A program made the translations under genes and the position numbers. DNA of 64,000 nt from Bradyrhizobium commune. Its GTDB lineage: Bacteria; Pseudomonadota; Alphaproteobacteria; Rhizobiales; Xanthobacteraceae. Within the stretch, counting starts at the first letter, position 1. Each line of letters opens with the position of its first letter. Under the pieces are notes generated by a model. That model saw nothing but the letters and a program-made list of their open reading frames with translations, was not told the origin of the DNA and ran no database searches. Location of the stretch: assembly GCF_015624505.1 (NCBI RefSeq), contig NZ_CP061379.1, forward strand, positions 186,001 through 250,000. The letters are read 5' to 3'. Below are positions 29,243-39,124 of the stretch, in pieces.

Positions 29243-30082
29243 TTATTCCGAAGGCCGGCTTCGCTGGCGATCACTATACAGCTTCATGATAGCCGCCGCT
29301 GTTTCCTCGATCGAGCGCCGCGTCACGTCAAGCAGCGGCCAATCATGCTTGGCACTCAGCTTGCGCGCAAACGCAACCTCCTCGGTGACCGACTGCCTGT
29401 CGGTATAATTCTCGCTGCCGGACTCGGCGCCCATTGAGAGCAGCCGGTTCTGACGGATCTGGATCAGGCGTTCCGGCGTCGCGTGCAGGCTTACGACCAG
29501 CGGCCGGGTCAGTGTCTCCAATTGCGCCGGCACCGGAATGCCCGGCACCAGCGGCACGTTGGCGGTGCGGATGCCGCGGTTGGCCAGATAAATCGAGGTC
29601 GGCGTCTTGGAGGTGCGGGACACACCGACCAGAACGACGTCGGCTTCCTCGAGGCCCTCGACATGCTGACCGTCGTCATGGATCATCGTGTAGTTCAGCG
29701 CATCGATGCGCTTGAAATATTCCGCATTGAGCACGTGCTGCGCGCCGACGCGACCGGTGGTCGCTGCTCCAAGATAGGCTTCGAACAGCTGCATCACCGG
29801 GCCGATGATCGACAGGCTCGGAACATTGATCTCCTTGCACTTGTCCTCGAGCCGGGAAACCAGATCCTTCTCCAAGAGCGTGAACAGCACGATCCCCGGC
29901 GCTTCCTCGATCTCATCGAGCACGCGGTCGAGCTGCTTCTGGCTGCGCACCAGCGGATAGACATGCTCGACCGGCGTCACGTTGGCGTATTGCGCCGCGA
30001 CGGCGCGCGCGACCGTAATCAGGGTCTCGCCGGTGGAGTCGGAGACGAGGTGCAGATGAAAATAATTGCTCGAGGTCGGCAC
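29243..30082 (-). CDS. Pyruvate, phosphate dikinase regulatory protein (DUF299)
   Basis: The 279-residue protein has [21 protein letters not shown] at the start and the P-loop [19 protein letters not shown] near residues 152-170. These bifunctional kinase/phosphorylases control PPDK or PEP synthase by phosphorylating an active-site Thr. The start codon is GTG at 30082. The family member in Caulobacter and Rickettsia (RP001) borders the chromosome origin, which is why the non-coding DNA upstream of this gene matters. Confidence 0.93.
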
Positions 30083-30384
30083 AAAAACTCTTTGTATGAG
30101 GGCGGGGCAGTTTGTGGATTTCTGTGGAGCTTAACCCCTCGGAAAGGGATGCGCGACACCAGGGGCGGGATAAGTGCCAATTTTCTTCACACCGCTGCCC
30201 CTCAGAACAAGTCCGGCACGCATGCGAGACGGAAACGGGATTGCGCCGACAAGCCCTTTGATAAGCTGCGGATGAAAACGCGCAAGCCTTTGAGCCCGGA
30301 TGGTTTATCCAGGCAGGCAGGAACCACGCAGGAGATGTTGAGGGATGTGAACAAGGGCGCACGAACTGGCGCACTTCATTGCGT

Positions 30385-30434
30385 GAGTCCAATCCACGGT
30401 CACTCAGACTCAAACCTTTAAGAATCTAAGATTC
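30385..30434. promoter_or_regulatory. Cluster of four GANTC (CcrM-type) methylation sites
   Basis: GAGTC at 30385-30389, GACTC at 30407-30411, GAATC at 30422-30426 and GATTC at 30430-30434. Random sequence would give about one per 256 bp. GANTC adenine methylation by CcrM marks replication state in alphaproteobacteria. Confidence 0.6.
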
Positions 30435-30482
30435 TAGATTTGAGGAAGGCAGTACGGACGGATATGTGTGCAGAGTAAGACC

Positions 30483-30497
30483 TTAACGGGTTCTTAC
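30483..30497. promoter_or_regulatory. CtrA-like site TTAA-N7-TTAC
   Basis: TTAA (30483-30486), seven bases, then TTAC (30494-30497) differ from the CtrA consensus TTAA-N7-TTAA by one base. The site is 60 bp before hemJ, so it might regulate hemJ, the origin or both. Confidence 0.4.
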
Positions 30498-30557
30498 TAT
30501 CCCCAGCCCGCTGGCCTAAGGTCGCCGGAAGGCTGGGTGCTCATTCGGGTGCCGGAC

Positions 30558-30992
30558 ATGTCGGAAGACCTCTACCTCTGGATCAAGGCGCTTCACGTGA
30601 TCGCCGTCATCTCCTGGATGGCCGGCATGCTCTATCTGCCGCGGTTGTTCGTCTATCACTGCGAAGCCGAGATCGGCTCGAAGCAGTCCGAGACGTTCAA
30701 GATCATGGAGCGCCGGCTGCTCAAGGCGATCATCAATCCGGCGATGGGAGCGACCTGGATTGCCGGACTTTTTCTCGCCTGGTCCGGGCATTGGTTCAGT
30801 TTCGGCTGGCTGCACGTAAAACTGGCACTGGTGCTGGCGCTGTCCGCGGTCCACGGCTTTTTTTCGCGCTGGGTGAAGGACTTCGCTGCCGACAAGCGCC
30901 CCCGCACCCAGAAATTCTATCGGATTATCAACGAGGTGCCGACGTTGCTGATGATCCTCATCGTGATCATGGTGATCGTAAAGCCGTTCTAG
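30558..30992 (+). CDS. hemJ: Protoporphyrinogen oxidase HemJ
   Basis: The 144-residue membrane protein starts MSEDLYLWIKALHVIAVISWMAGMLYLPRLFVYH and has four hydrophobic segments and a C-terminal LLMILIVIMVIVKPF. Conserved His in KALHVI is expected to bind heme, and Lys in ERRLLKAIINP is conserved. It converts protoporphyrinogen IX to protoporphyrin IX. The ATG at 30558 fits the family; an upstream extension in the same frame is not HemJ-like. hemE, often next to it in relatives, is absent. rho lies 259 bp downstream. Confidence 0.93.
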   Translation: MSEDLYLWIKALHVIAVISWMAGMLYLPRLFVYHCEAEIGSKQSETFKIMERRLLKAIINPAMGATWIAGLFLAWSGHWFSFGWLHVKLALVLALSAVHGFFSRWVKDFAADKRPRTQKFYRIINEVPTLLMILIVIMVIVKPF

Positions 30993-31251
30993 GCAAGATT
31001 CTAGGCAACAATCGTGAGCGATCGCTCAGCGCTTCGTCTTGCGGAGTGGGAAGCGATTTTCTATATTAGCGATATCCCACCCAACGCAGGCGGATGTGGT
31101 TGTGTCCGAGCTTTTTGAAGGCCGGACACCGCATCAGGTTTGAAGCCTCCACCGGCGCTCACCTTGCCAGACCTGCGGACCTTACCTTCTCACGTCCGCA
31201 TTTCAGAGCCTCCTCGCACCCCTCCCCAGGTTACCCCACAGGACCACCCCA

Positions 31252-32517: not shown

Positions 32518-32540
32518 TGTGCGGTGCAACAAAGCCTCAG

Positions 32541-32565
32541 AGGGCGCCTTCGGGCGCCCTTTTTG
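32541..32565 (+). terminator. Rho-independent terminator after rho
   Basis: AGGGCGCC-TTCG-GGCGCCCT forms a perfect 8-bp stem with a UUCG tetraloop (32541-32560), immediately followed by a T-run. It starts 23 bp after the rho stop. Confidence 0.93.
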
Positions 32566-32721
32566 TTGTGCGGCCTTGCTGCGGGACAGGTGCAGCATGA
32601 GAGGCGATTTGGCGCCGGATTCCCGATCGCTTCTAAGTTGTTGATATTTATTGAATTTGATTGACTTTCGGAGTTCCTTCCGGGTTCCGGAGCAGGGGTT
32701 TCTGCAGCAAACGCCCTGACT

Positions 32722-32738
32722 ATATTGCGCTGCAATAT
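32722..32738. promoter_or_regulatory. Palindrome ATATTGC-GCT-GCAATAT upstream of mnmE
   Basis: Perfect 7-bp arms around a 3-bp centre, 95 bp before mnmE. The core TTGCGCTGCAA (32725-32735) fits TTGCRNYGCAA, which I recall as the PhaR-binding consensus reported for Bradyrhizobium; I could not check that here. A dimeric regulator is likely. Confidence 0.4.
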
Positions 32739-32833
32739 GCCTGATTGCTGCGGGAATGGTGCAGCAAAGCAGGCTGCCGCACACTGACCAAAACGGGTGT
32801 TTGCCTTTTCGCCGGCAGCCGGACAAATAGGCC

Positions 32834-34204: not shown

Positions 34205-34238
34205 CGCTAGTTCTTCAATGTAGAACTAGCGTTTGTTC
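34205..34238 (+). terminator. Hairpin directly after mnmE, probable terminator
   Basis: CGCTAGTTCT (34205-34214) and AGAACTAGCG (34222-34231) form a perfect 10-bp stem with a 7-nt loop, starting at the first base after the mnmE stop. Only TTTGTT follows, so efficiency may be modest. Confidence 0.55.
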
Positions 34239-34248
34239 CATTGCTTGG

Positions 34249-34264
34249 TGTTTCACGTGAAACG
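34249..34264. other. parS site 1 (one mismatch)
   Basis: TGTTTCACGTGAAACG differs from the consensus TGTTTCACGTGAAACA only in the last base. It lies in the mnmE-mnmG gap and should bind ParB. Confidence 0.88.
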
Positions 34265-34297
34265 GTGGTTGGGTTCCGATCCCCGCGCCGCCCGCGG

Positions 34298-34376
34298 CAT
34301 TGCGAGGAGCTCTTGCGGCGAGGCAATCCAGGTTGCCACCGCGGAAGTCTGGATTGCTCCGCTGCGCTCGCAATGA
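34298..34376. repeat. Palindromic repeat family D, copy D1
   Basis: CATTGCGAGGAGC...GGCAATCCAG and CTGGATTGC...GCTCGCAATG form inverted arms. A second copy is at 39296-39381. It lies between parS sites 1 and 2. Confidence 0.75.
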
Positions 34377-34437
34377 CTGAGTGGGGCGCGGCCACTGCTG
34401 TCCCCTCATTGAATTACCCCTGTCCGCAGCCCAGCTT

Positions 34438-34453
34438 TGTTTCACGTGAAACA
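34438..34453. other. parS site 2 (perfect)
   Basis: TGTTTCACGTGAAACA matches the consensus parS 16-mer exactly. It lies in the mnmE-mnmG gap. Confidence 0.95.
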
Positions 34454-34517
34454 ACAACGCGACTTCTACTGTGCATGGGGTTGTTTTCGAGAAACGATCT
34501 AGCTCCTCCGGCCGCCC

Positions 34518-34533
34518 TGTTTCACGTGAAACA
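34518..34533. other. parS site 3 (perfect)
   Basis: A second exact TGTTTCACGTGAAACA, 80 bp after site 2 and 57 bp before the mnmG start. ParB loading here could affect mnmG transcription. Confidence 0.95.
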
Positions 34534-34589
34534 CCCGCCTCCCCAGTTTCCACTTCCGGCTTTCCCGCCTCTGAGCTAGAAGTCCGCCC

Positions 34590-36471: not shown

Positions 36472-36487
36472 CGTTTCACGTGAAACA
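36472..36487. other. parS site 4 (one mismatch), overlaps the rsmG start
   Basis: CGTTTCACGTGAAACA differs from consensus only at base 1. The GTG start codon of rsmG at 36480 lies inside the palindrome, so bound ParB would cover the start region. Confidence 0.88.
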
Positions 36488-37202: not shown

Positions 37203-37232
37203 GGCGTTCAGGGGTTGAGTGGGGAATTTGCG

Positions 37233-38087
37233 ATGGGCTTGATTGACGAGACGCAGCAAGAGCAGACCGCAACGGTGCCGCAGGGTCATCCGCGCATCCT
37301 GGCGCTGGCGAATCAGAAGGGCGGCGTTGGAAAAACAACCACGGCGATCAATCTCGGCACGGCGCTCGCCGCGATTGGCGAGCGCGTCCTGATCGTCGAT
37401 CTCGATCCGCAGGGCAACGCTTCGACCGGCCTCGGCATCGATCGCCGCAACCGCTCCTGCTCGACCTACGACGTGCTGATCGGCGAGGCCAGCCTGCGCG
37501 AGGCGGTGGTCGCGACCGCCGTGCCGCGGCTGCACATCGCGTCCTCGACCATGGATCTCTCCGGCCTCGAGCTCGAGCTCGGTACCACGCCCGGCCGCGC
37601 CTTCAAGCTGCGCGACGCGATCTCCGCGCTCAACAACAACGTCTCGCCGGAAGCCGATTACACCTACGTGCTGATCGACTGCCCGCCCTCGCTCAATTTG
37701 CTCACGGTGAACGCGATGGCAGCATCCGATGCGATCCTGGTGCCGCTGCAATGCGAGTTCTTCGCACTCGAAGGTCTGTCGCAATTGCTCCAGACGGTGG
37801 AGCAGGTGCGCTCGACGCTCAATCCGAACCTGTCTATCCACGGCATCGTGCTGACCATGTTCGACTCGCGCAACAACCTCTCGAACCAGGTCGTCGCCGA
37901 CGTTCGCCAGTTCATGGGCGAGAAGGTCTACAAGACCATGATCCCGCGCAACGTGCGCATCTCGGAAGCGCCGTCCTACGGCAAGCCGGTCCTGGTCTAT
38001 GATCTCAAATGCGTCGGCAGCGAAGCATACTTGCGGCTCGCCACCGAAGTGATCCAACGCGAGCGCGAGCTGCGCGTCACGCATTGA
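37233..38087 (+). CDS. parA: Chromosome partitioning ATPase ParA
   Basis: The 284-residue protein has the deviant Walker A LANQKGGVGKTTTAINLG near residues 24-41, IVDLDPQGNASTGLGI (A'), and Walker B YVLIDCPPSLNLLTVNAM. ParA forms an ATP-dependent gradient on the nucleoid that pulls ParB-parS complexes. ATG at 37233 follows GGGG at a suitable distance and is preferred over TTG at 37215. It follows rsmG by 30 bp; parB is 152 bp downstream with a repeat between them. Confidence 0.96.
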   Translation: MGLIDETQQEQTATVPQGHPRILALANQKGGVGKTTTAINLGTALAAIGERVLIVDLDPQGNASTGLGIDRRNRSCSTYDVLIGEASLREAVVATAVPRLHIASSTMDLSGLELELGTTPGRAFKLRDAISALNNNVSPEADYTYVLIDCPPSLNLLTVNAMAASDAILVPLQCEFFALEGLSQLLQTVEQVRSTLNPNLSIHGIVLTMFDSRNNLSNQVVADVRQFMGEKVYKTMIPRNVRISEAPSYGKPVLVYDLKCVGSEAYLRLATEVIQRERELRVTH

Positions 38088-38101
38088 AGCGACGGTGATC
38101 C

Positions 38102-38181
38102 GTAGGATGGGTAGAGCGCAGCGAAACCCATCATCGCACGCGCGAACAGCGATGGGTTTCGCTTCGCTCTACCCATCCTAC
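38102..38181. repeat. Palindromic repeat (family C relative, C3) between parA and parB
   Basis: GTAGGATGGGTAGAGCGCAG and the inverted segment GCGAAGCGAAACCCATC-type arm ending GAGCGAAGCG/TCTACCCATCCTAC make an 80-bp palindrome. It occupies most of the parA-parB gap and could stop or attenuate transcription of parB. Confidence 0.78.
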
Positions 38182-38239
38182 AAGTTTCGAAAATTCAGTT
38201 CTGGAGTACTGCAGCGTGAACCCAAGGGAGCTGGCGACA

Positions 38240-39124
38240 ATGGCCGACGAAGCGCGTTCGCGACTGGGCCGGGGTCTTGCGAGTCTGATCGGTGACGTCG
38301 GCGGTGAAGCCGCGCATGTCGATCGTCCGCGCGCACAGCGCAAGGTGCCGATCGAATTCATCAAGCCCAATCCGCGCAATCCGCGCCGCACCTTTTCCGA
38401 CACCGAGCTCAAGGAGCTCTCCGAGTCGATCAAGCAGCACGGCGTGATCCAGCCCATCGTGGTGCGCCCCGTGAAGGGCGCGCAGGATCGCTACGAGATC
38501 ATCGCCGGCGAGCGGCGCTGGCGCGCCTCGCAAATGGCCGGCCTGCATGAAGTGCCGATCGTACCGGTCGACATCAGCGACAGCGATGCGCTGGAATTCG
38601 CCATCGTCGAGAACGTGCAGCGCGAAGACCTCAACCCGATGGAAGAGGCGCAGGGCTATCACGCGCTCGCCAACGAATTCAAACGCAGCCAGGACGACAT
38701 CGCAAAGGTCGTCGGCAAGAGCCGCAGCCACATCGCCAACATGATGCGGCTCACAAGACTGCCGGCCGAGGTGCAGGCCCTCATCGCGCAGGGACAGCTG
38801 ACCGCCGGTCACGCCCGCGCGCTGATCGGCGTGCCCGATCCGCTCGCCGCGGCCAGGCGTATCGTCGAAGAGGGCCTCAACGTCCGCCAGGCCGAGGCGC
38901 TCGCGCATGAAGAGGGCGTGCCGGAGCGCAAGCCGCAAAAGGCACGCGCCGGGGGCAAGGAGAAGGACCCCGACACGATCGATCTCGAGAAGCGCGTCAC
39001 CGACGCGCTCGGCCTCAAGGTCACGGTGAACCACCGCGATCCCGGCGGCTCCGTGCAGATCAACTACCGCAACCTCGATCAGCTCGACGAAGTGATGAAG
39101 CGGCTCGCCAAGGGCGGGCTTTGA
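38240..39124 (+). CDS. parB: Chromosome partitioning protein ParB
   Basis: The 294-residue protein has the ParB order: RSRLGRGLASLIGD, the CTP-binding N-domain with YEIIAGERRWRASQMAGL, the helix-turn-helix DDIAKVVGKSRSHIANMMRL and a C-terminal dimer domain ending LDEVMKRLAKGGL. It binds the parS sites at 34.2-36.6 kb and spreads by CTP-dependent clamping. ATG at 38240 follows AAGGGAG and matches the family N-terminus; GTG at 38216 is an alternative. Confidence 0.96.
   Translation: MADEARSRLGRGLASLIGDVGGEAAHVDRPRAQRKVPIEFIKPNPRNPRRTFSDTELKELSESIKQHGVIQPIVVRPVKGAQDRYEIIAGERRWRASQMAGLHEVPIVPVDISDSDALEFAIVENVQREDLNPMEEAQGYHALANEFKRSQDDIAKVVGKSRSHIANMMRLTRLPAEVQALIAQGQLTAGHARALIGVPDPLAAARRIVEEGLNVRQAEALAHEEGVPERKPQKARAGGKEKDPDTIDLEKRVTDALGLKVTVNHRDPGGSVQINYRNLDQLDEVMKRLAKGGL

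Follow-up and report, generated by a model that had tools for sequence, protein, structure and literature searches.

The ppsR-hemJ intergenic region as a candidate chromosome origin in Bradyrhizobium commune and its comparison with Cori-type origins

The oriC of Escherichia coli carries GATC sites in the 13-mers of its unwinding element. The Cori origin of Caulobacter crescentus is described as lying between hemE and COG1806/CC_0001 (PMC1914354) and as containing five CtrA boxes together with an IHF site (PMC1914354, PMC8959179), and a hemE-type origin has been predicted in Rickettsia (PMC1914354). Here we compare with these systems the gap between ppsR and hemJ in Bradyrhizobium commune, which is very probably the oriC of the Bradyrhizobium chromosome and a descendant of the ppsR/hemE origin found in other Alphaproteobacteria. 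An earlier note on this DNA had proposed the gap as a candidate chromosome origin, and the proposal is now supported by a switch of strand composition, by an excess of DnaA-like boxes across relatives and by the synteny with Cori, while a candidate AT-rich unwinding element is found by calculation.

The window analysed is a stretch of 64,000 nucleotides, C1:186001-250000 of the single 7,622,528-bp contig (C1) of a 100% complete genome. Within it, the gap spans 475 bp (C1:216083-216557) with 54.7% GC and is bounded by the GTG start of ppsR at 30082 on the minus strand and the ATG of hemJ at 30558. The ppsR family is taken here to be COG1806/DUF299, and hemJ is our name for the UPF0093 protein. 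A Pfam scan of ten proteins was consistent with their gene names, and ppsR shares 98% protein identity with its counterpart in Bradyrhizobium sp. Ghvi. An alternative start of hemJ at GTG 30468 was not adopted, though on weak ground: when the gaps of relatives are measured up to the conserved ATG, their length differences are not multiples of three. The earlier note had described a non-coding gap of this length between the PPDK-regulator gene (ppsR) and hemJ, holding a cluster of four GANTC sites, a CtrA-like TTAA-N7-TTAC, a pair of 9-mers that each differ from TTATNCACA by one base, and an AT-rich patch; all of these were confirmed, and the patch is indeed the weakest 40 bp of the gap. The conserved near-box elements at 30113, 30123 and 30390 are additional. 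The features are collected in Table 1.

Table 1. Features of the ppsR-hemJ gap and its surroundings (positions in the window)
Feature	Position	Strand	Remarks
ppsR (PF03618), origin flank	29243..30082	-	Pfam
Candidate oriC, ppsR-hemJ intergenic region	30083..30557	.	non-coding; orthologous gap in 80/80 loci; skew switch within 20 kb in 3/3 genomes
Weak DnaA-like box AAATCCACA, two bases off TTATCCACA	30113..30121	-	TGTGGATTT identical in 71/80 named loci
Second tandem near-box AGCTCCACA, three bases off, 10 bp from the first	30123..30131	-	GTGGAGCTT in 49/80, GTGGACCTT in 27/80 loci
DnaA-like box TTCTTCACA	30183..30191	+	TTCTTCACA in 73/80, TTGTTCACA in 7/80 loci; same place in many family gaps
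DnaA-like box TTGTTCACA	30346..30354	-	identical in 72/80 loci
GANTC site GAGTC	30385..30389	.	kept in 79/80 loci
Weak near-box CAATCCACG beside the GANTC block	30390..30398	+	five commonest variants, all AAT(C/T)CAC, make up 74/80 loci
Candidate DNA unwinding element, weakest 40 bp of the gap	30403..30442	.	nearest-neighbour energy -46.7
GANTC site GACTC, within weak duplex	30407..30411	.	kept in 79/80 loci
GANTC site GAATC, within weak duplex	30422..30426	.	kept in 80/80 loci
GANTC site GATTC, within weak duplex	30430..30434	.	kept in 64/80 loci
Imperfect CtrA-like TTAA-N7-TTAC, TTAACGGGTTCTTAC	30483..30497	+	kept in at least 63/80 loci
hemJ (PF03653), origin flank replacing hemE	30558..30992	+	Pfam
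Three parS sites (34249, 34438, 34518), mnmE-gidA gap	34249..34533	.	gap of the kind that the published predictor calls oriC
Fourth parS site	36472..36487	.	
parA (37215-38087) and parB (38216-39124)	37215..39124	+	Pfam

The gap resembles Cori in the ppsR homologue alongside, in its DnaA-like boxes and in its AT-rich part. It differs in that hemJ replaces hemE, in that it holds one imperfect CtrA-like site and no perfect one, in that the IHF consensus WATCAN5WTR does not occur in it, and in that a GANTC pair lies inside the weak duplex. The earlier note had likened the local gene order to the border of Cori. This comparison holds in that COG1806 and hemE are the boundary genes there (PMC1914354), but hemE has moved away here, and its sole match in the genome lies at C1:5,802,195. 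The parS sites and parAB are close to the gap, as had been noted, starting 3.7 kb downstream of it, whereas 216 kb separate the gap from dnaA, which stands at the start of the contig. We read the gap as a remodelled Cori-type origin.

The locus was compared with the best 80 of 226 relatives (the named set), 78 of which are titled Bradyrhizobium, one Bradyrhizobiaceae (L078) and one Frankia (L115). The orthologous gap between ppsR and hemJ measures 428-512 bp in this set. The record titled Frankia sp. RB7 has a Bradyrhizobium-type ppsR-hemJ locus with 95% identity at the protein level, which makes mislabelling or contamination of this record probable. Searches of the genus, family and order, at most the best 30 matches of each and biased toward near relatives, gave 84 loci; among these best matches, ppsR is followed by hemJ in 55, by hemE in 28 and by a contig end in one (L178). 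In G153 and G131, two members of the family, hemE is retained at this locus.

In an alignment of 31 gaps of the family (7 Bradyrhizobium and 24 of other genera), DnaA-like boxes recur at fixed places. The place of the 30113 box reads TGTG(A/G)AT in most rows, the 30123 near-box coincides with a cTGTGG block, and the place of the 30346 box is TTATGCACA, a full match to TTATNCACA, in five loci of two genera (L182, L183, L187, L190 and L191). Judged by sequence, the near-box at 30123 may have a role in DnaA binding and that at 30390 may act as a further box. Only the Bradyrhizobium rows have a CtrA-like site at the place of 30483. Matches to TTATNCACA within one mismatch numbered 47 in 25 gaps from other genera of the family (L176-L200), compared with 6.2 ± 2.1 in shuffles, and 38 in 26 gaps of the order search (L201-L226, including L211, a member of the own family), compared with 4.1 ± 2.0. 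Perfect CtrA boxes numbered 0 against 0.06 in shuffles in L176-L200 and 9 against 0.15 in L201-L226; the corresponding GANTC counts were 94 against 58 and 53 against 39. The hemE-type origins, as predicted in Rickettsia and as read in our 28 gaps, share with this locus the ppsR flank and the box excess.

Over the 80 loci, constraint reaches 0.97-0.98 at the boxes 30183 and 30346 and 0.946 in the GANTC block; third codon positions score 0.750 in ppsR and 0.743 in hemJ. As the gap in its entirety is conserved at only 0.779 compared with 0.898 for the hemJ-rho gap (30993-31251), conservation alone proves little. The hemJ-rho gap itself contains a promoter-like TTGCGG...TATATT stretch, seen by eye, and a conserved rho leader without an Rfam match. 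The block TGTGGATTTGTCTCTTGATAA of many relatives is largely eroded in the B. commune gap, which has near-boxes only and no perfect box, and no exact TTATNCACA occurs in the 64-kb window. Genome-wide, TTATNCACA is present in 16 copies per 7.62 Mb, none less than 12 kb from another, compared with 49 copies of the reversed control, which suggests that perfect DnaA boxes are avoided throughout the genome.

The two types of gap differ most clearly in their GANTC and CtrA sites. The motif GACTC-N8-12-GA[AT]TCT, tied to weak duplex, was found in 79 of the 80 named gaps, in 32 of the 33 from the genus set and in 20 of 23 other hemJ-type gaps of the family (including L178), but in none of 28 hemE-type gaps. 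Overall, the GACTC/GANTC pair is present in 52/56 hemJ-type and 0/28 hemE-type gaps, and perfect TTAA-N7-TTAA boxes in 0/56 and 9/28, respectively, counts in which the hemJ-type gaps are not independent trials because they may go back to one event, so that a Fisher value computed from them does not measure how likely the difference is to arise by chance. At least two GANTC sites are found no more than 10 bp from the weakest 40 bp in 80/80 named gaps, 33/33 of the genus set, 20/23 other hemJ-type gaps and 6/28 hemE-type gaps. What is new is that hemE is gone from the locus in the Bradyrhizobium group, that perfect CtrA boxes are absent and that a GANTC pair lies in weak duplex. The RAMA domain, which we take to be the tail of CcrM, is encoded in all nine genomes searched, of both gap types, so the enzyme does not distinguish the types. 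In a culture of B. diazoefficiens, 99.77% of GANTC sites were reported to be methylated (PMC4840208). The gap resembles the E. coli oriC in having methylation sites inside the unwinding element and differs from it in the enzyme and the motif (CcrM and GANTC). It is conceivable, although we think it rather unlikely, that the origin was rebuilt in a hemJ-type ancestor, with hemE leaving, CtrA boxes being lost and CcrM sites being placed within the unwinding element. Firing would then be limited to once per cycle by the state of GANTC methylation and not by CtrA occupancy, in convergence with the Dam sites that the E. coli unwinding element carries.

Motif counts in this genome were set against 475-bp windows across 800 contiguous kb of chromosome around dnaA. 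Windows matching the counts of the gap made up 0.31% for DnaA-like boxes, 1.46% for GANTC and 1.92% for CtrA-like sites, and all three classes came together in 0.028% of windows, at two places: the gap and a second, some 296 kb ahead of the contig start. This rarity is suggestive, not decisive. In 100 dinucleotide shuffles of the gap, its two DnaA-like boxes compared with 0.23 expected (shuffle maximum 2) and its four GANTC sites with 1.80 (shuffle maximum 5), a modest excess. Positions as weak as 30403-30442 made up 0.006% of the 800 kb and fell into 13 places including the gap; one of the twelve others is only 2.2 kb off, in the rho-mnmE gap. The latter (32518-32833) contains a 40-bp stretch of -45.8, compared with -46.7 for the candidate unwinding element, the weakest being near C1:218,629. 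Motif counts in one genome alone would not decide on an origin, and the comparison with relatives does more.

GC skew was sampled in 60 stretches of 20 kb, 1.2 of the 7.6 Mb, and the relatives G153 and G131 were also sampled. A skew minimum elsewhere, which the earlier note had named as an outcome that would speak against the gap, did not appear in the sampled stretches: the cumulative minimum over 800 kb lies at C1:209,750, the gap at C1:216,083-216,557. For the whole chromosome, gene strand and replichore side were fitted together, intergenic pieces included, on a 20-kb grid with a single switch and a terminus fixed at half a genome's distance from it. The best grid points were 200,000 in B. 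commune, 2,240,000 in G153 (gap at about 2,251,000) and 5,220,000 in G131 (gap at about 5,225,400). Thus the best point lay at most 20 kb from the ppsR gap in all three family genomes, with dnaA 166-261 kb away. With the gap as the switch and gene strand corrected, the replichore effect gave t = 6.77, 8.25 and 6.45 in B. commune, G153 and G131. Over 400 contiguous kb of G153, the change point was 2,250,001 (95% interval 2,234,001-2,260,001; middle half of bootstraps 2,249,001-2,251,001) and the cumulative minimum 2,254,420, with the gap starting at 2,250,858 and dnaA at 1,990,032.

In B. commune, 21/30 stretches left of 200 kb within the 800 kb were negative and 8/10 from 200-400 kb positive; outside it, 10/11 20-kb samples of the right arm were positive (the miss being at 400 kb) and 9/9 of the left arm negative. 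The local switch has a wide bootstrap interval, from -348 to +340 kb, with the middle half at 167-221 kb. Third-codon-position skew over the 800 kb, corrected for gene strand, had its optimum at 340 kb, the edge of the stretch, and the fit was almost flat. K-mer orientation scores were noisy, with a minimum near 290.5-290.7 kb for k = 3-5 and at -45 kb for k = 6, and the KOPS-like GGGNAGGG gave few sites per stretch. A 40-kb fine scan in G131 gave no clear switch, with the minimum at 5,218,551 and the change point at 5,236,501.

A published prediction places the origin of this family elsewhere. In the Ori-Finder paper, TGTTTCACG is given as the DnaA box of Bradyrhizobiaceae and oriC as adjoining gidA (PMC2275245); the motif was applied to Oligotropha (PMC3091675) and served to define where the B. 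diazoefficiens reference genome begins (PMC4840208). That site is only about 4 kb from the ppsR gap, and skew resolves about 10 kb at best and cannot separate the two, so the choice between them rests on motifs, on synteny and on TGTTTCACG being one half of TGTTTCACGTGAAACA. We take TGTTTCACGTGAAACA to be the ParB site (parS). The genome has four perfect GTTTCACGTGAAAC at C1:220,250-222,486, less than 5 kb from parAB, and its 38 copies of TGTTTCACG are densest in a cluster of six at C1:220,249-222,487, within these four parS cores; elsewhere, the two copies nearest to each other are separated by 522 bp, at 2.794 Mb. The mnmE-gidA gap (34205-34589) contains no TTATNCACA within one mismatch and no GANTC. 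Meanwhile, DnaA keeps its usual recognition stretch: domain IV retains the GGRDHTT of the solved DnaA 8btg, which we take to be the B. subtilis protein and its stretch to be the one reading the box. (Extra DnaA C-terminal domains besides dnaA, above the family cut-off, occur in 5/11 genomes searched, G101, G119, G131, G138 and G153, those of G153 lying at C1:4,346,433 and 8,361,948.) In G131, unlike Bradyrhizobium and G153, gidA-parS-parAB and ppsR share one side of the gap, with hemE-hemJ-rho opposite, so that the position of the parS block with respect to the gap is not fixed; this local rearrangement (L264-L265, C1:5,206,001-5,246,000) puts mnmE-gidA-parS-parAB after ppsR-maf-coaE-dnaQ. Because the densest TGTTTCACG cluster coincides with parS cores and the block changes sides in G131, the published predictor most likely took the centromere, which neighbours the origin but is a ParB site, for the origin itself; we consider an oriC beside gidA, with DnaA binding at these motifs, highly improbable. 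A term search of the main text of Ori-Finder 2022 returned no mention of TGTTTCACG (PMC10225481), and a 2026 paper notes that the true origins differ from some of those listed in DoriC 12.0 (PMC13342612). No published correction of the gidA origin of the family was found in the literature searched, most subscription journals lying outside it.

An origin upstream of dnaA, near C1:7,621,534-7,621,839, is slightly less credible still. The gap there has four DnaA-like sites, one of them a perfect TTATCCACA, with one more in the preceding gene, presumably that of ribosomal protein S20; these are the densest DnaA-like windows in the 800 kb, and the duplex is almost as weak (-47.2) as the patch of the ppsR-hemJ gap. 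However, skew does not switch at dnaA, as 8/10 20-kb stretches from 1-200 kb are negative like the left arm, and the ln likelihood ratios against a switch at dnaA are 17.7 in B. commune, 62.2 in G153 and 9.9 in G131. DnaA boxes before dnaA are expected for self-regulation, which this box-rich region probably serves. Several GANTC sites were also seen by eye in the approximately 1.3 kb between the preceding gene and dnaA (end of L061). The least credible of these readings is that the ppsR-hemJ gap is only a divergent control region of its two flanking genes. It must hold both promoters, and conserved intergenic DNA is common, the hemJ-rho gap being conserved more. Nevertheless, an Rfam search of the gap was negative up to E = 1, a crude scan for sigma-70-type promoters had no match within it, and a control region would leave the order-wide box excess, the weak duplex and the skew switch unexplained.

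With the ppsR-hemJ gap as oriC, DnaA would load on the weak-box array at 30113-30131, 30183 and 30346, and the resulting complex would open the AT-rich stretch 30403-30442, where the helicase would enter. Forks would leave both ways, and the one passing through hemJ-rho-mnmE-gidA would meet parS within 4 kb, so that ParAB could segregate the new origins. The GANTC sites in the weak duplex would become half-methylated on fork passage and, if a methylation gate operates, would signal that initiation has taken place.

On this reading, the origin predicted for Bradyrhizobium and its kin shifts by about 4 kb. The motif TGTTTCACG used to find the origin is indicated to be a centromere site, a reading already built into the start of a reference genome (PMC4840208). 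In Ensifer, CcrM dysregulation has been suggested to drive the endoreduplication of bacteroids (PMC8725594). The 475-bp gap offers a defined target for work on DnaA and CcrM in a nodule symbiont.
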